This document shows positions 3,017-21,005 of a stretch of 24,066 nt of DNA, in pieces (the first letter of the stretch is position 1; each line of letters opens with the position of its first letter). The DNA is taken from NCBI GenBank assembly GCA_902810755.1, contig CADDYT010000096.1:1-24066 (forward strand), read 5' to 3'. The stretch comes from Chloroflexota bacterium (GTDB lineage Bacteria; Chloroflexota; Ktedonobacteria; Ktedonobacterales; Ktedonobacteraceae). The translations under genes and the position numbers were made by a program. Under the pieces are notes generated by a model. The model saw nothing but the letters and a program-made list of their open reading frames with translations, was not told where the DNA came from and did not search any database.

Positions 3017-3589
3017 TTAACCGGTGACAACCGATTCGAGATCGGCGGCGCGTTTAAGCGCCCGGAATTGCAATACTTTGACATTGGCCTCCGTCAGCCC
3101 CATCTTCTGGGCAGTATCCCGGATCGAGAGGTTGAGCAGAAAGCGACAGGTTAGGACTTCTCGATAATGTTCGGGCAGCGCCTGCAGGATGCGTCTCACC
3201 CGTTCCTCTGGCCTGACGCTCTCAAGTGTGACCGCTTCCTCTGCCGGGCCTTCCCAGCCCGCTTCCAGCAGTTCATCGAGCGAACTGACGGAGACGCGAT
3301 AATGGACACGCCAGTAATCGGCGATCGTCGTGCGCGCCACCTGGAAGAGCCAGTGCTGCATGCTCAACGCGCCGCGTTCGCGGTCTATCCCACGTACTGC
3401 CTTAATAAATATCTGTGAAGTCAGGTCCTCGGCCTCTTCCCGGTTTCCAACCCTACTATAGACGTAGCGGTAAATCTGGCCGAGATGCTCCTGATAGAAT
3501 TTTTGAAATTCCTGCACATCCACGCTATCCTGCCCCGATCCTGCTATGGCAGGTTCTTTCCTGGCTGATTTCCCGTGCAGCGTACCCAC
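3017..3589 (-). CDS. ECF-family RNA polymerase sigma factor
   Basis: A 190-residue sigma-70 family protein. Region 2 covers about residues 30-95 (FYQEHLGQIYRYVYSRVG, then EEAEDLTSQIFIKA and the core-binding WLFQVARTTIADYWR). Region 4, near 130-185, has LPEHYREVLTCRF followed by a helix-turn-helix LSIRDTAQKMGLTEANVKV. The start is a GTG at 3589, supported by AGGAG six bases upstream. The next gene downstream, 17 bases away, encodes the Rieske protein with the anti-sigma-like N-terminus, which suggests a cognate regulator. Divergently, 536 bases away, lies the sdh operon; whether this sigma factor controls sdh is unknown. Confidence 0.93.
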   Translation of the reverse strand: MGTLHGKSARKEPAIAGSGQDSVDVQEFQKFYQEHLGQIYRYVYSRVGNREEAEDLTSQIFIKAVRGIDRERGALSMQHWLFQVARTTIADYWRVHYRVSVSSLDELLEAGWEGPAEEAVTLESVRPEERVRRILQALPEHYREVLTCRFLLNLSIRDTAQKMGLTEANVKVLQFRALKRAADLESVVTG

Positions 3590-3726
3590 ACCGCTCTCCT
3601 GCTGAGATCGCTCTCATCATTGTGCCTGTATTTATATCGGCAAGACAACTTGTTTTCAGAGATTACTACGCCACCAGGTTACATTGCAGAGCCTATTATA
3701 TACCTTCACGGGCGGGAAAAAAAGAT

Positions 3727-3801
3727 GGGCGGGCCAATGCTTTTCACACCCCTGCAAAATACCGGCAGTCTGCCTTTGCAGGGGCGAAGCACGGCCCGCC
3801 C
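3727..3801. repeat. Nested intergenic inverted repeat
   Basis: Three nested arm pairs share one centre: GGGCGGGCC (3727-3735) with GGCCCGCCC (3793-3801); CCCCTGCAAA (3749-3758) with TTTGCAGGGG (3775-3784); and GGCA (3764-3767) with TGCC (3771-3774). The element lies between the divergent sigma and sdh genes, upstream of both. It has the look of a short interspersed hairpin repeat of the kind found elsewhere in this window. No coding frame is credible here. The rest of the 3590-4125 gap holds the sdh promoter and leader hairpin; I see nothing else in it. Confidence 0.75.
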
Positions 3802-3939
3802 CGGGTAATATGCTGTGGCTATCTCTCTGCTGGAATTGTTCCTTCCTACTCTATTATATACCAGAGAAGCAAATTTTTTTAGTGGTTTTGCCTCTTTTTC
3901 TCCCGTTGTTGTTGGAAATCGGTCAAAACCACAAAGAGT

Positions 3940-3968
3940 TTGCGCATGTCTGCGGCGTGGAGTATAAT
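3940..3968 (+). promoter_or_regulatory. Predicted sigma70-type promoter of sdhCDAB
   Basis: TTGCGC (3940-3945), a 17-base spacer and a consensus TATAAT (3963-3968). Transcription would start near 3975 and give a leader of about 150 nt before sdhC. The -10 box is perfect, while the -35 box matches only its first half. Confidence 0.6.
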
Positions 3969-4056
3969 GAAGCAGAGACAATATGACCGCCCTGGCGTGG
4001 TGTGACACAAGGACGTGTCGTGCGTAATTTCGTCTGTCGTCGTTGTATGATGGCGT

Positions 4057-4100
4057 GCGCGACGGGAGCGGGTTTTCCTGTTTTACCCCCATCGTCGCGC
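4057..4100 (+). promoter_or_regulatory. Leader hairpin upstream of sdhC
   Basis: GCGCGACG (4057-4064) pairs perfectly with CGTCGCGC (4093-4100). Inside the loop, a GGG/CCC pair can extend the stem. It ends about 16 bases before the sdhC ribosome-binding site (GAGGA). It could affect mRNA stability or translation, but no known riboswitch motif is recognisable. Confidence 0.45.
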
Positions 4101-4125
4101 CGCGCCGTGAAGAATTGAGGAAGGC

Positions 4126-4506
4126 ATGTACAAAGGTCAATCTGGTATGTGGTCCTGGCTGCTGCACCGCGTGGCCGGGCTGGGTATTCTCCTCTTTCTC
4201 CTCGTCCATATCGTGGACATCTCGCTGTTGAACTTCGGCCCCACCGTCTATAATGAGGGCATCGCGTTATTTGGCACCGCGATTGTGCGCCTGATCTCGC
4301 TGGCGCTGATCGCCGCCGTCCTCTATCACGCTTTCAATGGCGTGCGCATTATTTTGATCGATTTCTGGCCGAAGGCGGTGCGCTTTCAGGCGGCGATGTT
4401 CGCGATCGTGCTGGTCGTGACGATTGTCTGCTTTCTGCCGATGGCGTATTTTGTGATCGGCCCGGTCTTTGGCTGGCCGACGGGCAACATGCCCGCCGGG
4501 ATGTAG
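4126..4506 (+). CDS. sdhC: Succinate dehydrogenase cytochrome b subunit (SdhC)
   Basis: A 126-residue membrane subunit of complex II that, with SdhD, anchors SdhAB and passes electrons to quinone. Three membrane segments lie at about 12-34, 50-72 and 88-112. The N-terminus carries HRVAG (H14, R15), the quinone-site type motif of SdhC. H28 and H68, the latter in YHAFNGVRIILIDFW, sit in helices 1 and 2 as candidate haem ligands. Two membrane histidines here plus two in SdhD would fit a two-haem, type A-like enzyme; this is inferred from position only. GAGGA lies five bases before the ATG. It is the first gene of the sdhCDAB operon. Confidence 0.92.
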   Translation: MYKGQSGMWSWLLHRVAGLGILLFLLVHIVDISLLNFGPTVYNEGIALFGTAIVRLISLALIAAVLYHAFNGVRIILIDFWPKAVRFQAAMFAIVLVVTIVCFLPMAYFVIGPVFGWPTGNMPAGM

Positions 4507-4998: not shown

Positions 4999-6735
4999 AT
5001 GTATCATAAGTTTGATGTGATCATTGTCGGCTCCGGCGGCGCGGGCCTGATGGCGGCTATCCAGCTTGGGGGCGCGAGCGTGGCCGTGCTGACGAAGGTC
5101 TATCCTACGCGCTCGCACACGGGCGCGGCACAGGGCGGGGTGGCAGCCGCGCTGGGCAATCAGGAAGAAGACCACTGGAAATGGCACATGTACGATACCG
5201 TCAAGGGCGGCGACTATCTGGTCGACCAGCCGGCGGCGGAGATTCTGGCGCGTGATGCCATCGATGCCATCTATGAGCTTGAGCATCGCGGCCTGCCGTT
5301 CAACCGCATGGCTGATGGGCGCATCGACCAGCGCCGCTTCGGCGGCCACACGCGCAACTATGGCGAGGCAGCCGTGCGCCGCTCCTGCTACGCGGCAGAC
5401 CGCACGGGCCACATGCTGCTCCAGACGATGTACCAGAACGCTATCAAGAACGAGGTGCGTTTCTTCAACGAGTTTCTCGTGCTTGATCTGCTGCTCAACG
5501 AGGGCCGCGCCTGCGGTGTGGTGGCGATGGAGATTCGCACGGGCGAAATTCATACCTTCCACGGCAAGGCGGTCATGTTCGCTACCGGCGGCTATGGCCG
5601 CGCCTGGCGCGTCACCAGCAACGCTTTTGCCTGCACGGGTGACGGCATGGCTATTGCCTACCGGCGCGGTATCCCCTTGCAGGACATGGAGATGTACCAG
5701 TTCCACCCGACAGGCATCTACAAGGTTGGCGTGCTGCTGAGCGAGGCGGCGCGCGGCGAGGGCGGCAAGCTGCTCAACGATAAGGGCGAATACTTTATGG
5801 AGCGGTACATGCCCACGCTCAAAGACCTGGCGCCGCGCGATATCGTCTCGCGCTGCATCTTGCAGGAGATTCATGAGGGGCGCGGCATCAACGGCAAGGA
5901 CTACGTCTATCTCGATGTGCGCCATCTCGGCGAGAAGGTCATCACCGAGAAACTGCCCGATATCACCGATTTCGCGCGCAACTACCTGGGCGTCGAGCCG
6001 ATTACCGAGCCGGTTCCCATCCAGCCGACGGCCCACTATGCCATGGGCGGCATCCCGACCGATAACGATGCGCGCGTGGTGATCGACCCGCAGTGGACGC
6101 CTCTGCCCGGCTTCTATGCCGCTGGCGAGGTCGCCTGCGTCTCCGTGCATGGCGCCAACCGCCTGGGAACCAACTCGCTGGTCGACCTGATCGTCTTTGG
6201 TCGCCGCGCCGGCAGGCACATGGCGAAGTTCATTGCCGAAAACGAGCACGTGCCGCTGCCGCCGGAGCCGGAGAGCTACTCTCGCGAACTGCTTGATCGC
6301 CTCTATTCCTCAAAGGGCGGCGAGTCGGCGTACCGCATTCGCTCAACCTTGCAGAACGAGATGGATGCGCGCGTCTTCGTCGAGCGCGATGAACGCGGCC
6401 TGCGCCACGCGCTGGATACGCTGGATGGCTTGCAGGATGTGTACCGCCGCGTGCAGTTGCAGGACAAGGGCAAGACCTTCAATACCGAACTGGTCGAGGC
6501 CGTCGAACTCGGCTTCCTGCTCGACTGCGCCGAGGCCACCATTCACGGCGCCCTGGCGCGCACCGAGAGTCGCGGCGCGCACTACCGCACCGACTATCCC
6601 AAACGTGACGATGCCAACTGGCTCAAGCACACGCTGGCCTATAAAGGCACCAAAGCCCATGATGTGCGGCTTGACTACAAGGATGTCGTCCTTATCGACG
6701 ATCCCATTTTCAAGCCCAAAGAGCGGAAATACTAG
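4999..6735 (+). CDS. sdhA: Succinate dehydrogenase flavoprotein subunit (SdhA)
   Basis: A 578-residue FAD subunit, the usual length for SdhA, which oxidises succinate to fumarate on the cytoplasmic face. GSGGAG (11-16) is the dinucleotide-binding turn. H40 in TRSHTGAAQGG is the covalent FAD attachment site. HPTGIY (236-241), RGEGGKLLN (252-260) and LAPRDIVSR with R280 form the active site; R280 matches the catalytic arginine of the family. H346 in AHYAMGGIPTD contacts substrate, and ANRLGTNSLVDLIVFGRRAG closes the FAD domain. GAGGAAAGAG precedes the ATG. Fumarate reductase activity cannot be excluded from sequence, but the C-D-A-B order and aerobic gene context favour succinate oxidation. Confidence 0.97.
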   Translation: MYHKFDVIIVGSGGAGLMAAIQLGGASVAVLTKVYPTRSHTGAAQGGVAAALGNQEEDHWKWHMYDTVKGGDYLVDQPAAEILARDAIDAIYELEHRGLPFNRMADGRIDQRRFGGHTRNYGEAAVRRSCYAADRTGHMLLQTMYQNAIKNEVRFFNEFLVLDLLLNEGRACGVVAMEIRTGEIHTFHGKAVMFATGGYGRAWRVTSNAFACTGDGMAIAYRRGIPLQDMEMYQFHPTGIYKVGVLLSEAARGEGGKLLNDKGEYFMERYMPTLKDLAPRDIVSRCILQEIHEGRGINGKDYVYLDVRHLGEKVITEKLPDITDFARNYLGVEPITEPVPIQPTAHYAMGGIPTDNDARVVIDPQWTPLPGFYAAGEVACVSVHGANRLGTNSLVDLIVFGRRAGRHMAKFIAENEHVPLPPEPESYSRELLDRLYSSKGGESAYRIRSTLQNEMDARVFVERDERGLRHALDTLDGLQDVYRRVQLQDKGKTFNTELVEAVELGFLLDCAEATIHGALARTESRGAHYRTDYPKRDDANWLKHTLAYKGTKAHDVRLDYKDVVLIDDPIFKPKERKY

Positions 6736-6893
6736 GTTTCCAACCCGAACGGGAGGAAGGGCTTGAATGCTGCCGCTTCTGCTTGAGGCAAGTATACCCT
6801 CACAACCCGAAAAGCTCAAGCGCAAAGGGACTGATAGGGCGCAATAAACTGCGTCTGGACGGACACGCTGGTTGTGTCATTGGAGTGAAAACT

Positions 6894-7601
6894 ATGAACT
6901 TACAGATGCGTATCAAACGCTTCGATCCAGAGAAGGACGCGAAGCCATACTGGGCCGAGTACACCGTCGAGGCCGATCCCATTGATCGCCTGCTGGACGC
7001 GCTCAATATCGTCAAGTGGACGATGGACGGCTCGCTGACGTACCGGCGTTCGTGCGCGCACGGCGTCTGCGGCTCCGATGCCATGCGCATCAACGGGCGC
7101 AACCGCCTCGCCTGCAAGGTTCTCGTGCGCGACGTGGGCGAGAAGGTGACGATTGAGCCGATGCTCGGTTACCCCGTCATCAAAGACCTGGTCGTCGACA
7201 TGGACGGCTTCTTTGAGAAGTACAAATCGGTCAAGCCCTACCTGATTACGTATGATAGCGAGCCGGGAACCGAGCGGCTGCAATCACCGGAGCAGCGCGC
7301 GCGCTACGACGAGGGAACGAAGTGCATTCTCTGCGGCGCCTGCACCGGTTCCTGCCCGTCGATCTGGGGCAACGCCGACTGGGTTGGCCCGGCCTCGATT
7401 GTCAATGCCCACCGTTTCATCTTCGACAGCCGCGACCAGGCGACGCAAGAGCGGCTCTCGATTCTGGGCCAGCGCAACGGCGTCTGGCGCTGCCGCACCA
7501 TCTTCAACTGCGTCGATGCCTGCCCGCGCGGCATTCCCGTCACCGACCTGATCGAACAGGTCAAACGCGCCATTGTCTACAATGACCGCGACGTGGAATA
7601 A
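6894..7601 (+). CDS. sdhB: Succinate dehydrogenase iron-sulfur subunit (SdhB)
   Basis: A 235-residue electron-transfer subunit with three clusters. The [2Fe-2S] site is C54, C59, D62, C74 (SCAHGVCGSDAM); the aspartate in place of a cysteine also occurs in E. coli SdhB. CILCGACTGSCP (C144, C147, C150, C154) and C200, C206, C210 supply the [4Fe-4S] and [3Fe-4S] ligands. The start at 6894 is chosen because GGAG lies eight bases upstream and family homology begins at once; the frame is open upstream to 6783, but that part looks non-coding. The 158-base gap after sdhA is large for an operon and shows no clear terminator or promoter. Confidence 0.96.
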   Translation: MNLQMRIKRFDPEKDAKPYWAEYTVEADPIDRLLDALNIVKWTMDGSLTYRRSCAHGVCGSDAMRINGRNRLACKVLVRDVGEKVTIEPMLGYPVIKDLVVDMDGFFEKYKSVKPYLITYDSEPGTERLQSPEQRARYDEGTKCILCGACTGSCPSIWGNADWVGPASIVNAHRFIFDSRDQATQERLSILGQRNGVWRCRTIFNCVDACPRGIPVTDLIEQVKRAIVYNDRDVE

Positions 7602-7619
7602 CTGGCCATGCCACCCTGC

Positions 7620-7714
7620 AGGCCACCCGCCAGGGGTGGCCCTACTATACTACGGGTATCCGTATCATCTGGAGAGCTGTCGAGTATAGTAGGGCCACCC
7701 CTGGCGGGTGGCCT
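7620..7714. repeat. Long perfect inverted repeat with hairpin-forming arms
   Basis: A 32-base arm (7620-7651) is repeated exactly in inverted orientation at 7683-7714, with a 31-base spacer. Each arm also folds alone: GGCCACCC (7621-7628) pairs with GGGTGGCC (7634-7641). The arms contain CTACTATACT/AGTATAGTAG. The element lies 18 bases after the sdhB stop and could end the sdh transcript, although no T run follows. The two-level symmetry resembles REP/BIME-type elements. The GGCCACCCG core recurs at the right end of the window (24012-24066). Confidence 0.85.
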
Positions 7715-7769
7715 GGGAGGGGGTGCGAGCTATTAATTGCTGCGCCCATTATAGTAGGAGAGACCATAC

Positions 7770-8675
7770 ATGGCTATTCCAACGGAATTGTGGCGGCATC
7801 ACGACATTATGACTAACGGCATACGCATGCACTATGTAACGGTGGGCGGCGAGGATGATGAGAAGCGCGCAGAAGGCGAAAAGCCGCTGGTGCTGCTGCT
7901 GCATGGCTTCCCGGAGTTCTGGTACTCCTGGCGCTACCAGCTTCCCTTTCTGACGGAGCATGGCTACCTGGCGGTCGCGCCCGACCTGCGCGGTTACAAC
8001 GATAGCGATAAGCCGCGGGGGGGCTATGATGTGGCGACGCTGATTCGCGACATCGAGGGCTTGATAAAGGGGTTGGGGCGCGCGCGCGCGATCATCGTGG
8101 GCCATGACTGGGGCGGAGTGCTGGCGTGGGCCTTTGCTATGCGCTACCCACAGATGACCGAACGGCTGATCGTCATGAACGCGCCGCATCCGGCGGCGAT
8201 GATACGCGAATTGCGCACGCCTGAGCAACTGCGCAAAAGCTGGTATATTTTCTTCTTTCAGTTGCCCTGGCTGCCCGAATATGTGCTACTGCGCAACCAC
8301 GCGAACGAGATCGGGCGCATGCTGCGCGGGGCCGCCACGCAAAAAGAGGTCTTCCCGCGTGAGGTGACGGCGAAATTTCAGCAGGCGATGAGCAAGCCGG
8401 GGGTCATGACTGCTGCGCTCAACTACTATCGCCAGCTCTTTCGCGACTTTCCCCGCCGCCTGCGGCAGCCCCAGGCCAGCACGAGGCGCATCTCCGCTCC
8501 CACCCTGCTCATCTGGGGCGAGCAGGATATCGCCCTCGGCCTTGCCATGACCGAGGGCCTGGAACAATGGGTGGAGCATCTCCAGCTCAAAAGAATTCCT
8601 GATAGCGGCCACTGGGTGCAGCAGGAGAAGCCGGACCTGGTCAACTCGTTTGTGCTGGATTTTCTCAGAAGGTAG
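7770..8675 (+). CDS. Alpha/beta hydrolase, epoxide-hydrolase-like
   Basis: A 301-residue cytoplasmic hydrolase. HGFPEFW (45-51) is the oxyanion-hole motif. D113 in GHDWGG is the nucleophile, an aspartate rather than serine as in epoxide hydrolases and haloalkane dehalogenases. D253 (GEQDIAL) and H281 (DSGHWVQQEKP) complete the triad. Cap-domain tyrosines at Y159 (SWYIFFFQ) and Y219/Y220 (NYYR) are in the places where epoxide hydrolases hold their ring-opening tyrosines, which favours epoxide hydrolase over dehalogenase. AGGAG lies about ten bases before the ATG. It stands alone between two repeat elements, so the substrate cannot be inferred from neighbours. Confidence 0.9.
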   Translation: MAIPTELWRHHDIMTNGIRMHYVTVGGEDDEKRAEGEKPLVLLLHGFPEFWYSWRYQLPFLTEHGYLAVAPDLRGYNDSDKPRGGYDVATLIRDIEGLIKGLGRARAIIVGHDWGGVLAWAFAMRYPQMTERLIVMNAPHPAAMIRELRTPEQLRKSWYIFFFQLPWLPEYVLLRNHANEIGRMLRGAATQKEVFPREVTAKFQQAMSKPGVMTAALNYYRQLFRDFPRRLRQPQASTRRISAPTLLIWGEQDIALGLAMTEGLEQWVEHLQLKRIPDSGHWVQQEKPDLVNSFVLDFLRR

Positions 8676-8700
8676 CAATCCATAAAAAAACAACAGAGAG

Positions 8701-8790
8701 ATGTCATGCTGAGCGCAACGAAGCATCTCTCGTCGGCCATGTCGCCTGGCTGGTGGCACCAGATACTTCGCTGCCGCTCAGCATGACATG
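8701..8790. repeat. Interspersed repeat, inverted pair (ATGTCATGCTGAGCG family)
   Basis: The left arm begins ATGTCATGCTGAGCG at 8701 and runs to AGCATCT (8728). The right arm (8761-8790) is an inverted, slightly diverged copy starting AGATACTTCG. The spacer is about 32 bases. Further copies of the same core occur at 12902 and 14179. The sequence after the right arm, GACATGTCCGGGGACGATTC, also recurs after the third copy. The element lies 25 bases after the hydrolase stop and may also act as its terminator. Confidence 0.85.
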
Positions 8791-8828
8791 TCCGGGGACG
8801 ATTCCCATAGTATGACATATCGATAGTG

Positions 8829-8916
8829 CCAAAAAAGAAAGGGCCTGGATCGTTGTTGCTCCTTGGGGGGAGTGAGCAACAGGTTCATGCGATGCAACAT
8901 GAACACGATCCGGCCC
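8829..8916 (-). terminator. Three-way-junction RNA with poly-U tail
   Basis: Three helices are visible. P1 pairs 8841-8853 with 8905-8916 (12 bp, one bulged base). P2 is GTTGCTC (8855-8861) with GAGCAAC (8874-8880). P3 is GTTCATG (8883-8889) with CATGAAC (8898-8904). The joints are only 0-2 bases long. On the minus strand P1 is followed at once by TTTCTTTTTT (8840-8831), so it can serve as an intrinsic terminator for the small zinc-ribbon gene and the sigma/anti-sigma genes upstream. Two more hairpins lie between it and that gene: GCGACGT with ACGTCGC (8922-8939) and GGCCT with AGGCC (8974-8986). It is more elaborate than a plain terminator, so a small RNA or 3'-UTR-derived RNA is possible. 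The rest of the 8676-8986 gap is the repeat at 8701-8790; I see no gene. Confidence 0.6.
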
Positions 8917-8986
8917 TCGGGGCGACGTTTGCACGTCGCTGCATAGCAGGAGAGTTTCTATCTTCAATGAGAAGGCCTTTCAGGCC

Positions 8987-9232
8987 CTATACCTCAATTC
9001 TTTCTCCCGCGAATAATGATCGATAATCGTAATACACATCTGAAGCAGCTTTTTGCTCTTCGCTCTCAGGCCAGCAGGGATTGCCCAGCACGGCTTCTAG
9101 CCACTCGATGGCGCACGGGCGGCACATACCGTGTGTCGCCTCGTAGTCTTTAGGCAACGGCTTCGTTGAAAGCGGCTCCCCACATTGATCCATCTGGCGC
9201 AGGCACCAGGCACATTGCCGTATCATCATCAT
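8987..9232 (-). CDS. Small zinc-ribbon-like protein, function unknown
   Basis: An 81-residue protein with two cysteine pairs, CAWC (C7, C10) and HGMCRPC (H34, C37, C40), spaced as in a small zinc ribbon. The pattern C-A-W-C followed later by H-G-(I/M)-C-x-x-C resembles a short module seen near the ends of some sensor and response-regulator proteins. The C-terminal half is acidic and aromatic (YYDYRSLFAGE) and matches nothing I recognise. The start is one of three consecutive ATG codons after GGAAAGGAAAG; the first is used here. It lies 42 bases after the anti-sigma gene in the same direction and may belong to that operon as an accessory component. Confidence 0.75.
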   Translation of the reverse strand: MMMIRQCAWCLRQMDQCGEPLSTKPLPKDYEATHGMCRPCAIEWLEAVLGNPCWPESEEQKAASDVYYDYRSLFAGERIEV

Positions 9233-9274
9233 CTTTCCTTTCCACTTCCCCGGCTCTCTATTCGCTTTCTGCGC

Positions 9275-10312
9275 TCAGTGATGTCTGGAAAACGAACAAC
9301 TGCTGAGCGAACCGATTTGCAAGGTTGCTATCCTGCGACTGCTTGCATCAAATGCCGTAATCTGAAGAGGCATTAACCGGCAGTCATTAACAGTAAACGT
9401 GATATCGATGTTTCCTCGCCCATCTGCTGTGCGCGGAAAGATCACGTTGAACCCATAGACTGCCAGCCATACGCGCCCGTACTTTGTGAAACCGGAGCCG
9501 CAGATCTGAACAATGTTCCGTTTGAGCTGGCTCGGCGTGCTGCAGAACACAATCTGCGGCCCGGAGTGCGTAGGAGTCGGCGTTTTCGTCTGCGCCGACG
9601 GACTTTTCGACGTTACCGGTATCGATGTATTGTGCTGCCGGGGAATTGACGGCGGTGTTTGTTGTGCGTGGCTTTCCGTCATCACCGGCTTCATTATCGG
9701 CGATGCTAACAGGCCAATCATCAGTGTGAGAACTGCCGCCACAACGACCAGCGCAATGGCGAGCCGCCGGAACGAGCGGGGCGCGGAACGACGGCTTCCG
9801 GTCGGGCCAGAGCGCAACGCGCCGCTAGACCGCAGCGCGGCGAACGGGCCGGGTAACGGCTCGTCCGTGAGGGGAGAGAGCGGTGAGACAAATAAGCCCT
9901 GCTCCCTGTTCTCTGCCTGTGCCTGCCCGCGTTGCTGCCCCAGGATCTTCTGCACAATCCCTTCCAGCAGCGAGTATTTATAAGCTCGCTGCAAATCGGC
10001 CAGAATGCGCTCTCGCCGCGTGAGGCGGTTTTCCAGCGCGACCCGCTGCATCACACGATTGGTGATAGAGGGATAGAATTGCTGCTTCTGCTCCTGCATA
10101 TAGGGCGAGAGTAGCCGACCATCCTGCTCAAAGGCGTGGCATTTATGGCGGCAAAAAGGGCATTCGTTGATGTGCTGTTCGATCTGTATTCGGTTGTCAA
10201 GGTGCTGCTGGCGCACGGAAGCGAGTAGCAGGTCATCGGATGGATGCCGCCCTTCACTATAGTCATATTCCTTTGAAGCCCGCGTATGCGCGGGTGGCCT
10301 CTGATCTGACAT
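9275..10312 (-). CDS. Zinc-finger anti-sigma factor, membrane-spanning
   Basis: A 345-residue protein encoded 23 bases after an ECF sigma gene. The cytoplasmic part holds a HxxxCxxC zinc-binding anti-sigma motif (H47, C51, C54, in EQHINECPFC). A basic linker (RRSAPRSFRR) precedes one membrane segment at about 183-204. Outside lies a Ser/Thr/Pro-rich stalk (about 212-250) and a compact C-terminal domain (252-340) with five cysteines and beta-strand-like texture, starting PQIVFCSTPSQL. The outer domain probably senses an envelope signal, but I do not recognise its family. The sigma/anti-sigma order and spacing make it the likely partner of the upstream sigma factor. Confidence 0.88.
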   Translation of the reverse strand: MSDQRPPAHTRASKEYDYSEGRHPSDDLLLASVRQQHLDNRIQIEQHINECPFCRHKCHAFEQDGRLLSPYMQEQKQQFYPSITNRVMQRVALENRLTRRERILADLQRAYKYSLLEGIVQKILGQQRGQAQAENREQGLFVSPLSPLTDEPLPGPFAALRSSGALRSGPTGSRRSAPRSFRRLAIALVVVAAVLTLMIGLLASPIMKPVMTESHAQQTPPSIPRQHNTSIPVTSKSPSAQTKTPTPTHSGPQIVFCSTPSQLKRNIVQICGSGFTKYGRVWLAVYGFNVIFPRTADGRGNIDITFTVNDCRLMPLQITAFDASSRRIATLQIGSLSSCSFSRHH

Positions 10313-10335
10313 AGCGCCTGCCGTTCCGCCTCTTC

Positions 10336-10884
10336 CTACATACGTTTTTTCGGGGCTGTGCCGTATGATGCGCGGAACTTCGTCACCCCGCGCGATACTC
10401 GTTTGCGCACCGCCTCTGGACTGAGCTGCAAGATCTGGCCGATTTCTTCGTAGGTGAACCCATCACCATAGTGCAATTGCAGGCAGGCCGCATCTTCCGG
10501 TTTGAGTGAACGCAGCGCCTGTTCCACGAGAATACGAGTCTCCGCCTGCCCCTCTGGCCCTTCGACCGCGAGGCAGGGATGGTAGTCTTCGCCCGTATCC
10601 AGATGAACAAACGAGCGCAACTTTTTTCGGTTAAGATAGCGCAGACCGTAATTGGTAGCAATACGATAAATCCAGGCATTGAGTGAGAGATCCTGCGGCA
10701 TTTTGCCAATCTCCTTATATACCTGTAAAAACGTATCTTGCGCAAGGTCCAGCGCCACTTCACGGTCGCCGACGAGCCGATGTAAATAGCCGATGATCGG
10801 CTGTTCCAACCGTTCAACCAGAGAACGAAAGGCGTTCGCATCTCTCGCCTGCAGACTCTCTACCACCTGTATATCAGTGAACAT
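10336..10884 (-). CDS. ECF-family RNA polymerase sigma factor
   Basis: A 182-residue sigma factor. Region 2 spans about 15-85 (FRSLVERLEQPIIGYLHRLV, DLAQDTFLQVY, WIYRIATNYGLRYL). Region 4 spans about 120-175, with LKPEDAACLQLHYGDGFTYEEI and the helix-turn-helix IGQILQLSPEAVRKRVSRG. It is followed by the zinc-finger anti-sigma gene, which should hold it inactive at the membrane until a signal arrives. An inverted repeat lies about 65 bases upstream and could be a regulatory site. It is distinct in sequence from the sigma factor at 3017-3589. Confidence 0.93.
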   Translation of the reverse strand: MFTDIQVVESLQARDANAFRSLVERLEQPIIGYLHRLVGDREVALDLAQDTFLQVYKEIGKMPQDLSLNAWIYRIATNYGLRYLNRKKLRSFVHLDTGEDYHPCLAVEGPEGQAETRILVEQALRSLKPEDAACLQLHYGDGFTYEEIGQILQLSPEAVRKRVSRGVTKFRASYGTAPKKRM

Positions 10885-10947
10885 GTAACCTGATATGGGT
10901 GCCCCCTGTTCCCCCTTGATGAGCCTACACTTCTATAATCATCGAGC

Positions 10948-10967
10948 AACCTGAAACCGGACAGGTT
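10948..10967. promoter_or_regulatory. Possible operator upstream of the sigma/anti-sigma operon
   Basis: AACCTG (10948-10953) and CAGGTT (10962-10967) form a perfect 6-bp inverted repeat with an 8-base spacer, 64 bases upstream of the sigma start. No convincing -35/-10 pair was found beside it. It may be a protein-binding site or chance. Confidence 0.3.
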
Positions 10968-11015
10968 TTTGAGGAAATTTTTCCCCCGGAAAATATTGCC
11001 TCACAATGCCAACTC

Positions 11016-11059
11016 GTAGGCGCCGATTATGAATTGTTCCGATCAAAATCGGCGCCTAC
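11016..11059. repeat. Inverted repeat GTAGGCGCCGATT
   Basis: GTAGGCGCCGATT (11016-11028) is repeated exactly in inverted form at 11047-11059. A related half-copy, TCGGCGCCTAC, lies at 14140-14150, downstream of the ROK kinase gene. The element lies 16 bases after the stop of the molybdopterin oxidoreductase, on its 3' side. It may be a terminator without a U tract or, given the second copy, an interspersed repeat. Confidence 0.65.
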
Positions 11060-11075
11060 AGGTAATTGCTTCATA

Positions 11076-12791
11076 TTAAGAGACGGACACCGATATAGTG
11101 TGGTAGCCCGATGACCCATTCGGGAGGGGTGGAGCGGGGTTGGGGTTTTGCACATTGCCTTCGAGGTCGATGGCGCGCACGATGATGGTATGATTGCCCG
11201 GCGTCGGCGTCCAGGGCAGTTCCCACAGCACCCAGGTGAGGTTCGAGTACGGGCGTTTGAGCGTGGCGCGCTGCCAGCTTGCGCCGTTATCCAGGCTGAC
11301 ATCTACCTCGCTGATGCCCCTGTCGCCGGAGAAGGCCACGCCCGCGATGTAGGCGGGTCGGTTGGCGGCCAGCGTCGCGCCGGTCAGTGGCGTATCGATG
11401 CGCGAGGTCAGCCGCACGGGCGCGGCGTCGCTCCAGCCGCGCTGCTGCCAGTAGCCCTGATAGTCGGTGTTGACGACTTCGATGCGCGTGAGCCATTTGC
11501 AGTGCTTCATGCCATAGATGCCCGGCACCAGCATACGAGCGGGGAAGCCGTGTCCATCCGGCAGCGTCGCGCCGTTCATGCGCACGGCCAGCAGCGTCGT
11601 CGGCTCCAGCGCCTTGCTGAGATGGATGCTATCGCTGTAGCCGTCGGCAGCATAGAAAACGACTTTACTGGCCCCGACTCTGATGCCCGCCCGTTGCAGC
11701 AGGTCGCTCAATGGCACGCCTTCCCACAACGCATTGCTCATATACGGCCCGCCCACATCGTTGCTGATGCATTCAAGCGACTCATATTGCTGCTTCATAG
11801 GCAGCGCCAGCATCTGTTGATACGTCAGGCTGAAGGGATGCTCGACCTCGCCATCGACGACCAGATTCCAGTTTGAGGCATTGACGGTGGGATCGGAGAA
11901 GAGATTTTTGGAGACAATGTAAAATTGATCGTTGGAGGTGATCTCCGGCGAGAGGCCACGCACGGGCTGAATGGAGCCATAGTTGGGAACCGGCGGCGGT
12001 ACAATCTTGCTCTTGAACTGCTGCACCAGCCGCCCCACCGGCACGCTCACCGTGCCGCCGCCCTCGCTGATAAAGCGGTACGCGGCCACCCCTAGCAGAC
12101 CGATCCCGGCGATGATGAAGCCGCGTTTGAGCAGGGCGCGGCGCGAAAGCCCGAAGCCAGTTTCCTCGTCCTCATCCTCCTCGCTTGCCCTGCGCTTCCC
12201 CCGACCGAAGGCCAGCCAGTTCTGGAAGGAAGCGAAGAGCAGACCGAAGATGAGGCCGACGATGCCCAGGCTCACCATGCTATTTTGCAGGCCAACAGGC
12301 GTCTGTGCGCCAAAGATGCCCGCCCCCGTTGCAGGCAGCAGCAGGAAACCGGTGAGCAGCCAGAGGATAAAGGCCAGCGCCACGCCATCCAGCCAGTCAA
12401 GCCGCGTGCCGGTGCGCGCCGTTATGATACGTGAAGCAAGGGCGAGATTGTACAGCCCGCCACTCAGCGCGAAGACAAAACATTGCCCCACCAGGATGAT
12501 AGCGAACAGGTAAAACTTGGCATCGCCCCCGATCAACTGATGCAGGTAGGCAAACATGGTCGGTGGCATGAGCGCGGTAATCTCCGAGCCAAACTCTTCC
12601 GGCAGCGAGATACCGCCGAAGACCGTGCTACCCAGTAACATAGCGCCAGAAGCAATAATACCGGCAGCCAGCCCGGCCAAAAAGCCATACTTGAAGCGCG
12701 TTCTCCCGCTCAACCTGCCGCCCTCATTGCCGCTCGTGGTCGTTGTACCGGGCGCAGGCATCTCGCCGCGCGTCCTGTCCTGTGTATCCAT
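11076..12791 (-). CDS. Membrane-anchored sulfite-oxidase-like molybdopterin oxidoreductase
   Basis: A 571-residue protein. Residues about 34-58, 92-118, 136-156 and 172-192 are membrane segments. A twin-arginine SRRALLKRG (216-224) then leads into a fifth segment ending near 240. Residues 270-465 are the oxidoreductase molybdopterin-binding domain: C341 in LECISND is the expected molybdenum ligand, and GHGFPARMLVPGIYGMKHCKWL-type sequence (412-434) is the classic cofactor-binding stretch. Residues about 465-570 form the Ig-like Mo-co dimerisation domain (VSLDNGASW). The catalytic part should lie outside the membrane. The substrate may be sulfite or another S- or N-oxide. The ATG has AGGAAGA seven bases upstream, and a TATAAT (minus strand, 12842-12837) may be its -10 box, without a clear -35. 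No haem subunit lies next to it, so the electron acceptor is unknown. Confidence 0.92.
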   Translation of the reverse strand: MDTQDRTRGEMPAPGTTTTSGNEGGRLSGRTRFKYGFLAGLAAGIIASGAMLLGSTVFGGISLPEEFGSEITALMPPTMFAYLHQLIGGDAKFYLFAIILVGQCFVFALSGGLYNLALASRIITARTGTRLDWLDGVALAFILWLLTGFLLLPATGAGIFGAQTPVGLQNSMVSLGIVGLIFGLLFASFQNWLAFGRGKRRASEEDEDEETGFGLSRRALLKRGFIIAGIGLLGVAAYRFISEGGGTVSVPVGRLVQQFKSKIVPPPVPNYGSIQPVRGLSPEITSNDQFYIVSKNLFSDPTVNASNWNLVVDGEVEHPFSLTYQQMLALPMKQQYESLECISNDVGGPYMSNALWEGVPLSDLLQRAGIRVGASKVVFYAADGYSDSIHLSKALEPTTLLAVRMNGATLPDGHGFPARMLVPGIYGMKHCKWLTRIEVVNTDYQGYWQQRGWSDAAPVRLTSRIDTPLTGATLAANRPAYIAGVAFSGDRGISEVDVSLDNGASWQRATLKRPYSNLTWVLWELPWTPTPGNHTIIVRAIDLEGNVQNPNPAPPLPNGSSGYHTISVSVS

Positions 12792-12901
12792 ATGCTATCT
12801 TCCTGCTCTGCATAGCGGGCAATATGCCCTGCTACTATTATATTCTTTATCCTGTTACACGGCTACTGAGTTTAAGATTTACAAAACGTTCGTGGGCGTG
12901 C

Positions 12902-12964
12902 CATGCTGAGCGGGAGCGAGCGAGGCATCTGAGGTAGGCCAGGGCGGAGGCAAGCTCCGCCCTG
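12902..12964. repeat. Interspersed repeat fragments: ATGCTGAGCG copy and GC-rich hairpin
   Basis: A second copy of the ATGCTGAGCGGGAGCGA element (12902 to about 12931) is followed by a perfect 10-bp hairpin, CAGGGCGGAG (12940-12949) with CTCCGCCCTG (12955-12964), loop GCAAG. Both lie in the gap between the divergent molybdopterin enzyme and ROK kinase genes. They look like insertion sites of small non-coding repeats, not like regulatory sites of either gene. Confidence 0.75.
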
Positions 12965-13047
12965 ATCCACACTATTCAATCTTGTTCGTTCACATCCATC
13001 ATTGCATCCTTACGCTACAATACGATATCATCCGCATACGAAAACAT

Positions 13048-14124
13048 ATGGATAATGATGAGCATGAAGCTATGCAAAACAAAGGGGATGAAGCAGCTTT
13101 GCCACCTGTGCTGGCAGTAGACCTGGGAGGGACGCAGATGCGCGCAGGCGTGCTACGCGGCGCGGAACTGCTCTCGCGAGTTGTGTTGCAAACGGGGGCA
13201 GACCGCAGGCCGGAGAGCATGTTGCCCCGCGCCTTTGCCGCGCTGGAGCAGGCATTACAGCAAGCGGGTGTGACTTTAGAGCAGGTTGCAGGCATCGGGA
13301 TTGGCGCGCCGGGGCCGCTGGACAGCCGCACGGGAATTGTCTACACGCCGCCTAACATGCCCGGCTGGGAGGCATTGCCGCTGCGGCAGCTCTTCGCGCA
13401 GCGGTACCACGTACCGGTGTATGTCGAGAACGATGCCAATGCGGCTGCCCTGGGCGAGTTTCTCTTTGGCGCGGGCCAGGGCTGCCAGCACATGGTGTAT
13501 CTGACCATCAGCACGGGCATCGGCGGCGGCGTGATCGCCGATGGCAGGTTGCTGGCGGGCGCGAGCGGCGCAGCGGCTGAACTGGGCCACATGACGATTG
13601 ACTGGCAGGGGGAACGCTGCACTTGCGGCAATACCGGCTGCCTCGAATATCTTGCATCCGGCACCGGCATCGCGCGCCGCGCCGATCAGCTCATCCAGAC
13701 AGGTCAGGGCAACGACCTGCTGGCCTTTGCACGCCAACTTGCACAACAGGAACGCGCCGGAAAGGCGCAACATGACGATCAGCCCGGACATGGAGGGCAA
13801 ATCCCGGTAACGGCGCGCATGGTGGCGCTGGCAGCAGCGGCAGGCGTAGCGGCGGCGCAGCAGATCATCGAACGAGCGGCGGAGGCGCTGGGGGTGGGCC
13901 TTGTCAACATCATCCACATTTTCAATCCTGAGAAAATCGTTCTCGGCGGCGGTGTGACGCAGATGGGGCCGCTCTTGATGGAACCGGCGCTGCGCGTGGT
14001 GCATGAGCGGGCAATGCGCGCCCCACGTGAGGCTGTGCGCATCGAGCTTGCTCGCGCAGGCCCCGATGTCGGCCTTGTCGGAGCCGGATCATTGCTCTAT
14101 TATTATCACAATACGGGTTTGTGA
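13048..14124 (+). CDS. ROK family glucokinase
   Basis: A 358-residue sugar kinase from this start. The ATP-binding turn DLGGT is at 25-29, and the catalytic aspartate D129 is in VENDANAAALGEF. The ROK zinc site is complete: H181 (ELGHMTIDW) with C191, C193 and C198 (CTCGNTGCLEYLASG). It probably phosphorylates glucose to glucose-6-phosphate; other hexoses are possible, and there is no N-terminal helix-turn-helix, so it is not a NagC/XylR-type repressor. The start is uncertain: ATG at 13048 and ATG at 13072 are both possible, neither has a good ribosome-binding site, and the frame is open upstream to 12982. A low-complexity Q/H/G-rich segment near residues 235-255 is a family-length insertion. 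Confidence 0.9.
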   Translation: MDNDEHEAMQNKGDEAALPPVLAVDLGGTQMRAGVLRGAELLSRVVLQTGADRRPESMLPRAFAALEQALQQAGVTLEQVAGIGIGAPGPLDSRTGIVYTPPNMPGWEALPLRQLFAQRYHVPVYVENDANAAALGEFLFGAGQGCQHMVYLTISTGIGGGVIADGRLLAGASGAAAELGHMTIDWQGERCTCGNTGCLEYLASGTGIARRADQLIQTGQGNDLLAFARQLAQQERAGKAQHDDQPGHGGQIPVTARMVALAAAAGVAAAQQIIERAAEALGVGLVNIIHIFNPEKIVLGGGVTQMGPLLMEPALRVVHERAMRAPREAVRIELARAGPDVGLVGAGSLLYYYHNTGL

Positions 14125-19861: not shown

Positions 19862-19890
19862 TTGACAAATCACAATGATCGGTATAAAAT
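19862..19890 (+). promoter_or_regulatory. Promoter of the tRNA-Leu gene (and perhaps tRNA-Val)
   Basis: A consensus TTGACA (19862-19867), a 17-base spacer and TAAAAT (19885-19890) end 26 bases before tRNA-Leu. This is the best promoter match in the window, as expected for a stable RNA gene. Confidence 0.8.
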
Positions 19891-19916
19891 AGGCAACGTA
19901 ATCCGTTAGGAGTCAT

Positions 19917-19998
19917 GCCCTCGTGGCGGAATGGTATACGCGGCAGGTTGAGGGCCTGTGCCCGAAAGGGCGTGGTGGTTCGAGTCCACTCGAGGGCA
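19917..19998 (+). tRNA. tRNA-Leu (anticodon GAG)
   Basis: The acceptor stem GCCCTCG (19917-19923) pairs with CGAGGGC (19991-19997), with discriminator A at 19998. The anticodon stem CAGG/CCTG encloses the loop TTGAGGG, so the anticodon is GAG, which reads CUC/CUU leucine codons. A long variable arm (GCCCGAAAGGGC) marks it as a class II tRNA, and the T loop TTCGAGT is normal. The CCA end is not encoded. The gene is uninterrupted, unlike the next tRNA. Confidence 0.95.
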
Positions 19999-20003
19999 CC
20001 CGC

Positions 20004-20068: not shown

Positions 20069-20691
20069 TACATATACCCGCTAAAGGCAAGAAACACAGG
20101 CAAGTAGTCAAGGGCGACTAGCTCAGCTGGTTAGAGCGGCTGCTTTACACTTGCGCCGTCGACGCACATTAACTCTTGCCACCGAAGGGTGGCGCCACTG
20201 GTACTAAGGTGGCTAAAGCAACGCCTTACCTGATGGGGAAACCCAAAGGGGACAATAGCATGGCGGAATAAAGGCTGGATGGGATAAGTACCTAATCGCA
20301 GGTCAGTCAGCTAGGCCGCATAAGGTCAAGGCTACACTGCTTGAACTCTAGTCGGGCGGTCCAGGTCAGCGACTCAGGTCTTCATGGTACTATTGGGCCT
20401 GCGGAGCGGTTCACGGTAGAGCGTGTAAGTGCTGTGAAAAGTACCACGCTCCGGCCACCCTCAGTGAGAGGGGACAGACGAACAGAGGACCTACGTGCGG
20501 AGCGGAGTTAATGTGAAACGACGGGATCACCTACAAGCCGAGAGGCTCATGGTGACAGAGTACCCATAGTACTCAAATGATCGGGGTAATGCCCGATACA
20601 CGGGGAAGGGGTACAGACGCAGGCATTCAAGGTTCTGATCGGATGTGCCGGATGGCACGCCAGTCCGAGAGGGACGAATGCAAGTGTTGGA

Positions 20692-20725
20692 GAGCCGGAT
20701 GCGCCGAAAGGTGCCCGTCCGGTTC
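20692..20725 (+). other. Group II intron domain V (catalytic hairpin)
   Basis: Exactly 34 nt. GAGCCGGA (20692-20699) pairs with TCCGGTTC (20718-20725). The upper stem CGCC/GGTG carries a GAAA tetraloop, and a bulge separates the two stems. The AGC catalytic triad is at 20693-20695. This is the most diagnostic part of any group II intron. Confidence 0.97.
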
Positions 20726-20727
20726 GG

Positions 20728-20922
20728 AAAGGGGTAGTTGGAAACGTGACGGGTAGACCGAACATTCTCGGATGAGCCGAGGTTCTGTTCAGGAGACTTG
20801 AAAGAGTCTTCTGTCTCCTTCGAGCAGAAGGACTCGGCGGCTGCAAAGCCGCCGACAAAACACAGCTCACAAGTCCGAAGAGTGTTCGCAGGACACCCGT
20901 TAACGCGCTGGCTATCTACTTT
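20728..20922 (+). other. Domain VI with branch-point A and about 166-nt insertion
   Basis: Two bases after domain V, AAAG (20728-20731) pairs with CTTT (20919-20922), and GGGTAGTTGG (20732-20741) pairs with CTGGCTATCT (20908-20917), with G-U pairs included. Only A20918 is unpaired on the 3' strand. It lies seven nucleotides from the intron end and next to a G-U pair, as expected for the branch point. Between the strands, 20742-20907 is an insertion with several hairpins: ACGGGT with ACCCGT, CTCGG with CCGAG, GGAGAC with GTCTCC, and GGCGGC with GCCGCC. Domain VI is usually about 35-45 nt. Confidence 0.8.
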
Positions 20923-21005
20923 ATGCAGTAGGTCCGGGGTTCGAATCCCTGGTCGCCCACTTCTCCTGTTCTCCTCTTTTTCAGGAGTGACTTCCTTTCC
21001 TCCGA

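Follow-up and report, generated by a model that had tools for sequence, protein, structure and literature searches.

In the window analysed here (the whole stretch of 24,066 nt of contig CADDYT010000096.1, from a Chloroflexota bacterium of the family Ktedonobacteraceae), a tRNA-Val(UAC) gene was found to be interrupted between standard tRNA positions 38 and 39 by a 774-nt insert which, judged from its sequence, is a genuine, structurally complete group IIA-type intron lacking an ORF. Very probably this intron is removed by the predicted lariat splicing, probably aided by a trans-acting maturase, and the tRNA that results is functional. Making the valine tRNA that reads GUA is therefore likely to depend on a self-splicing RNA together with a protein encoded elsewhere. 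The parts of the tRNA-Leu/tRNA-Val locus of the window described below lie on the forward strand unless stated otherwise.

The 5′ exon (positions 20112–20150, 39 nt) extends to standard tRNA position 38, and its 3′ end is the whole anticodon loop, UUUACAC, which corresponds to IBS1. The 3′ exon (20925–20959) runs from position 39 to the discriminator base A; it opens with GCAGU, which forms the 3′ side of the anticodon stem and whose first base (G20925) is δ′. When joined, the two exons were recognized by ARAGORN as a 74-nt tRNA-Val(tac) with all stems intact and no sign of decay; the first-pass annotation had claimed that they join to a perfect tRNA-Val(UAC), and its coordinates proved to be exact. 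Enumeration of possible cuts gave four that yield a 74-nt tRNA with five anticodon-stem pairs, and only one of them (20150/20151 together with 20924/20925) left an intron with UGCG at bases 2–5 and an AY 3′ end. Because the insertion separates the strands of the anticodon stem, the precursor cannot form a normal anticodon arm until the exons are joined; the spliced tRNA-Val(UAC) would be expected to be functional.

With default settings on the intact window, ARAGORN did not call the split tRNA-Val, its sole call being the uninterrupted tRNA-Leu(GAG) gene at 19916–20001 (Rfam tRNA, 49.8 bits). When introns were allowed, a split gene was reported at the right place, but with a wrong anticodon and a wrong cut. 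The 5′ half of the tRNA-Val(UAC) gene begins 110 bases downstream of the tRNA-Leu(GAG) gene, and a sigma-70 type promoter-like site (TTGACA-17-TAAAAT, 11 of 12 positions matching) was found upstream of the pair at 19862–19890. Two such sites were found in all, against 0.4 expected from shuffled sequences, the second and weaker one lying inside the intron. From its sequence and location, the site at 19862–19890 is a possible common promoter of the two genes, in which case the interrupted tRNA-Val would be transcribed together with the upstream tRNA-Leu. A neighbouring GH57 protein pointed to a bacterial host resembling Ktedonobacteria: among the best 120 of its 1116 homologues, the nine rows that named an organism comprised eight Ktedonobacteria and one ‘Chloroflexota’, the top such homologue being 81 % identical. 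The other genes of the window were ordinary bacterial ones by Pfam, including succinate dehydrogenase subunits, sigma-70 family factors and an FtsJ-like methyltransferase.

The insert (20151–20924) was assigned to the group II introns, subgroup IIA type, on the basis of the covariance model RF00029 (Intron_gpII), its predicted fold and its alignment with IIA-type relatives. RF00029, for which the gathering score is 40, reached 47.2 bits in a scan of the window, rising to 52.5 bits (E 2.6e-9) for the segment 20100–20970 by itself. The latter match covered an enlarged domain VI and ended exactly at 20924, the 3′ splice site defined independently by the tRNA, so that the group II domain V claimed for the insert in the first-pass annotation was confirmed above the gathering score. 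Domain V was placed at 20692–20725 by RF00029 and by folding. Domain VI (20728–20922) was predicted to consist of a basal stem (20728–20741 paired with 20908–20922) and an apical insertion of approximately 165 nt. The single bulge in this basal stem was A20918, base 7 counting back from the 3′ splice site, which falls within the distance of 7–8 bases at which group II introns are expected to carry the branch-point adenosine, in agreement with the earlier prediction of such a base; given this single bulged A, lariat splicing is expected and the intron would leave as a lariat. Domain I (20156–20524) was closed by a 20-nt inverted repeat that was 85 % complementary (20156–20175 with 20505–20524), as found by the repeat search and in the MFE fold. 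The intron as a whole folded at z = −10.6 relative to 60 dinucleotide shuffles. The 3′ end, AU, fits AY, and the 5′ end, UUGCG, deviates from GUGYG at its first base. The picture drawn in the first-pass annotation held for domains V and VI and for EBS1 (see below); the deviant U1 had gone unmentioned. The apical insertion of domain VI (20742–20907) was itself strongly structured, the segment 20735–20905 folding at z = −6.3, and 20735–20910 found no match in plasmids.

Genes for tRNAs are common integration sites, and the split gene might be an integration-site or assembly artefact; a Planctomycetota locus described at the end (L003) may be an example of such a site. Here, however, both exons are found on the same strand and in the right order, what separates them is a complete group II intron with ends that match the exons, and the domain V–VI match ends at the exon boundary, so that an artefact was given a negligible probability.

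The pairings between intron and exons were then considered. The sequence GUGUAAG at 20423–20429, located by alignment with relatives and by a pairing test, can pair as EBS1 with the exon sequence UUUACAC through six Watson–Crick pairs and one G-U pair. When folded alone, it lay in a hairpin (20411–20437; stem 20411–20418 with 20430–20437) whose 11-nt loop (20419–20429) contained δ and EBS1, whereas in the MFE fold of the whole intron and in a 52-nt context a competing pairing covered part of EBS1. Relatives folded in the same 52-nt way formed a stem-loop around the EBS1 place in five of six cases, the exception being the Providencia intron. The matching EBS1 of the first-pass annotation was recovered with seven pairs, although it is modest evidence on its own, since 760 of 20,000 random 7-mers paired as well within the same 70-nt stretch. 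Across 10 introns, the homologous EBS1 place matched the intron's own 5′ exon over six to eight bases in eight, no EBS1 being found at this place in L014 and L018. Taken jointly over eight bacterial introns, with both of these misses kept in the test, the own-exon EBS1 pairing was equalled by only 11 of 20,000 exon shuffles. In subgroup IIA, the nucleotide immediately upstream of EBS1 (δ) pairs with the base that opens exon 2 (δ′). This feature was present as C20422–G20925, although a single base pair is weak evidence when taken alone. The corresponding pair was G-C in an intron of Microvirga described below, for which exon 2 was taken from unoccupied sites. It was also G-C in two plastid trnV introns, where δ is G and exon 2 was read as starting with C. 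For EBS2–IBS2 no convincing pairing was found; the candidates contained one to three G-U pairs and none lay at the place of the Microvirga candidate. This does not exclude splicing.

In an alignment of introns that had been fetched by similarity, the domain I landmarks of the window intron were common to introns of Microvirga, Streptomyces, Komagataeibacter, Providencia, Sphingobium, Lactococcus, a Streptococcus phage and plastid trnV (the non-plastid relatives being L012–L018). The Lactococcus intron (L017, plasmid pAH82), which we take to be of the Ll.LtrB type, a IIA intron, shared with the window intron a homologous EBS1 stem-loop and a domain I motif; it differed in encoding a maturase and in lying between two pieces annotated as relaxase genes. 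The maturases of the Streptomyces (L013) and Sphingobium (L016) introns were 36 and 37 % identical, respectively, to that of the Lactococcus intron. By sequence similarity, the closest relatives found thus appear to be bacterial introns of LtrB-like IIA type. No record in plasmids, phages or E. coli genomes covered 80 % of the window intron used as query, and in the plasmid search 18 of the 20 best rows (of 1558 records) matched around domain V only.

No reverse transcriptase ORF was present in the window intron, and the one ORF of at least 100 aa wholly inside it encoded 107 aa on the minus strand. As this was the only such ORF and the part from domain III to domain V amounts to approximately 80 nt by alignment, there is no room for a maturase. 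Elsewhere in the window, no reverse transcriptase was detected among the 20 of 65 listed ORFs that were scanned with Pfam. A trans-acting maturase would probably assist the intron, and this is plausible in such a host because Ktedonobacter racemifer is reported to have 34 group II reverse transcriptase genes (PMC3236041). A domain I of IIA type was also seen at 3431–4100 of the Providencia rettgeri plasmid locus (L015), in an unannotated stretch without an annotated reverse transcriptase; this intron is possibly ORF-less or truncated.

A second bacterial tRNA gene with a group IIA-type intron was found on the Microvirga lotononidis megaplasmid NZ_CP141049.1 (L021), where a tRNA(CAU) gene at 5741–13658 is cut between positions 38 and 39 by an intron at 5779–13620. 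This intron was 71.5 % identical to the window domain I over 144 nt and was the first row among the plasmid matches listed; in a second plasmid search it stood below three Komagataeibacter records, yet had the lowest E-value among the 40 matches listed. A query made of the tRNA half and the start of the Microvirga intron matched 57 plasmid records. Since 38 of the 39 others listed matched exactly the first 38 bases (the remaining one the first 36), similarity stops where the Microvirga intron begins. Two of these records (L019 and L020) hold a contiguous tRNA-Met(cat) gene and so represent empty sites. Exon 2 of the Microvirga gene was located 7,842 bases downstream. Once joined, the exons give a tRNA-Met(cat) with two differences from the unoccupied site of Microvirga ossetica: a single base in the D loop and another in the CCA end.

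The Microvirga intron resembles the window intron in being a bacterial group IIA-type intron with a related domain I, a cut between positions 38 and 39, an EBS1 of eight pairs out of eight and a δ pair (G-C). It differs in possessing a maturase gene, in starting with GUGCGCC, in enclosing both another group II intron and a complete tRNA gene, and in its location on a megaplasmid. The outer maturase gene was in two pieces, with an ORF for a resolvase-family recombinase between them, and an intact tRNA(CAT) gene was present inside the insert at 11037–11112. The inner group II intron (11161–13559, 2,399 nt, with its ends placed to within a base or two) had its own maturase and a domain V of 52.8 bits, and no EBS1 match was found for it by simple search. 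It sits in domain V of the outer intron: rejoining the two outer halves restored a well-formed domain V with a domain VI behind it. From its sequence organization, the locus may be described as a twintron-like nest in a bacterial tRNA gene.

Group I introns are known from bacterial tRNA genes, for example in tRNA-Leu UAA. They resemble the window intron in that they are self-splicing and interrupt a bacterial tRNA gene in its anticodon region, but represent a different ribozyme; the group I core model RF00028 was unmatched in the window, and gave no match at E ≤ 1 in 20100–20970. Group II introns in bacterial tRNA genes were considered by the first-pass annotation to have no well-described example. 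This has to be revised, since TeI4h, a group II intron in the single-copy tRNA-Ile(CAU) gene of Thermosynechococcus elongatus, has been published and studied experimentally (PMC2882425; Mohr et al., 2010), and the Microvirga case was found here. As presented in the accessible text of that paper, TeI4h is like the window intron in being a bacterial group II intron in a tRNA gene with good EBS/IBS pairing and U as its first base, and its host tRNA is said to be single-copy and putatively essential; it is unlike the window intron in being framed with group IIB (EBS1, 2 and 3), in having a maturase ORF and in residing in another tRNA (PMC2882425). Elsewhere in the open-access literature, the accessible parts of two reviews remark briefly that introns of group I or II occur in bacterial tRNAs, with no named group II example (PMC4390854; PMC3978253), and the accessible part of a survey of group II introns mentions none in tRNA genes (PMC8919778). 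Our searches of this literature, for which Microvirga was not a query, found no bacterial group II tRNA intron other than TeI4h and no report of one in bacterial tRNA-Val(UAC). It is thus the tRNA-Val(UAC) case that appears to be new, whereas a bacterial group II intron in a tRNA gene was already known from the one published precedent found.

Counted against the preferred explanation, a spliced intron in a functional tRNA gene, were U1 in place of an almost invariant G, the lack of a convincing EBS2–IBS2 pairing, the long insertion in domain VI, the MFE fold that competes with the EBS1 hairpin and the absence of a maturase among the window ORFs that were scanned. The unusual U1, the missing EBS2 and the domain VI insertion would also fit a retroelement remnant, decaying or already dead, lodged in a copy of the gene that is dispensable, with an intact tRNA-Val(UAC) gene at work elsewhere and the present locus splicing poorly or not at all. 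The intact tRNA(CAU) gene inside the Microvirga insert lends some weight to this explanation, as it indicates that an interrupted tRNA can have a spare copy. In the window, however, the exons are intact to the base and EBS1, δ, domain V and the branch-point A have all been kept, which drift would not be expected to do unless the insertion was very recent, and a remnant was therefore regarded as unlikely. Nor does U1 alone argue that the window intron is dead, because TeI4h also starts with U and this base was favoured over G in mobility assays. According to the accessible text of PMC2882425, the U1→G change lowered the mobility of TeI4h at 37 °C from 3.4 to 0.5 %, and that of an improved construct from 39 to 8.4 %; at 45–48 °C the U1 and G1 versions of the improved construct were nearly equal in mobility, and more than 600 sequenced retrohoming products of improved TeI4h all began with T (PMC2882425).

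The plastid trnV-UAC intron provided a further comparison. Having group II introns in tRNA genes is generally seen as something particular to plastids, and the parallel with chloroplast trnV-UAC suggested in the first-pass annotation turned out to extend to an identical site in the same tRNA. Two loci (L002 and L007) containing trnV, trnM, trnF and a group I intron, which look like chloroplast DNA within MAGs labelled Lactobacillus and Trichormus, had trnV-UAC genes cut at the identical point, UUUACAC|GUGCGCC. The plastid trnV-UAC introns of streptophytes are thus like the window intron in tRNA and anticodon, in the site after UUUACAC, in being of group IIA without an ORF and in the δ pairing, while they start with GUGCG rather than UUGCG. 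In the accessible parts of the sources, the plastid trnV intron is classed as group IIA (PMC2694360), its domain VI is reported to be without the bulged adenosine (PMC13172542) that is kept in the window intron, and a plant intron at the same site, listed as IIA, is reported to splice (PMC13172542; PMC2694360).

The shared tRNA, the 38/39 position, the subgroup and the similarity in EBS1 (GUGUAA in L007 and GUGUAG in L002, compared with GUGUAAG in the window) could be taken to indicate that the insert and the plastid trnV-UAC intron are counterparts related through shared ancestry or transfer. The identity in EBS1 is, however, also expected under convergence, because EBS1 must match the exon. 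When the window intron was compared by BLAST with five loci (L002, L006, L007, L012 and L013), the matches to two bacterial introns reached 60.8 and 54.5 bits, whereas plastid trnV yielded a single 17-nt stretch, in L007, of 27.4 bits, representing a motif common to other bacterial introns of the set. The body of the window intron was thus not closer to plastid trnV than to bacterial introns, and common descent or transfer was considered very unlikely. Since little beyond the exons and the matching EBS1 was in common apart from this one 17-base motif, which other bacterial introns share, the sequence comparison makes it likelier that the two introns chose this target independently than that the window intron and plastid trnV share an ancestor; the original insertion would have occurred by retrohoming or retrotransposition.

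It is quite possible, if still somewhat doubtful, that bacterial IIA introns have repeatedly settled at tRNA position 38/39, the niche of plastid trnV, and that the present organism cannot decode the valine codon GUA without an ORF-less ribozyme, which in turn relies on a maturase encoded outside it. If so, this would be a bacterial counterpart of the plastid MatK arrangement. A bacterial intron at the identical site of the identical tRNA and without a maturase offers a free-living system in which to study how a ribozyme intron is tolerated in a translation gene. It allows one to ask how a maturase becomes the trans-acting helper of an intron, as MatK did in plastids, and whether introns have converged on the anticodon loop as a place to land.

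The occurrence of such introns was investigated in 84,980 species genomes using a pattern composed of the 5′ half of tRNA-Val followed by KTGCG, so that both the insertion site and the opening bases of the intron were prescribed. Among the seven pattern matches there was no further intact tRNA-Val(UAC) gene of a bacterium with an intron start at this site. L001 was an uninterrupted tRNA-Val, L002 and L007 were read as chloroplast DNA in MAGs from their tRNA and Rfam content, L004 and L005 were read from their sequence as chance matches with no tRNA, and L006 (Leptolyngbya FACHB-36) was not a tRNA. Wider tRNA patterns with KTGCGCC matched in six of 397 genomes of the Roseibium order, none of the six being tRNA-like by eye or called as a tRNA by ARAGORN. 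Such patterns matched none of 386 genomes of the Leptolyngbya phylum and one of 149 in the phylum of L003, which was L003 again, and two patterns gave no matches in viral contigs. Introns at other sites or with other opening bases escape these patterns, and TeI4h was recovered by none of them, so that the true number of cases may be higher. Taken together, TeI4h, the Microvirga gene and the window gene suggest that group II introns in bacterial tRNA genes are under-annotated, since ARAGORN with default settings missed both of the split genes seen here (window and Microvirga).

Two of the loci retrieved by the scan had features of their own. In L006, the stretch at approximately 4056–4250 looks like the start of a group II intron (GTGCGAC...) but lies outside any tRNA gene; no RF00029 match was found in the locus, and it is probably a fragment. 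In L003, from a Planctomycetota MAG (JACQVR010000125.1), the 5′ half of a tRNA-Val(UAC) gene at 4414–4460 is directly followed by GTGCGCC. No group II match was found in this 8-kb locus and no matching 3′ half in the genome (one pattern, allowing one mismatch). At least five group II matches were detected in the genome when 150 of 235 candidates were scored, none of them on the L003 contig. Our guess is that L003 is a relic of another kind, perhaps of an integration site.
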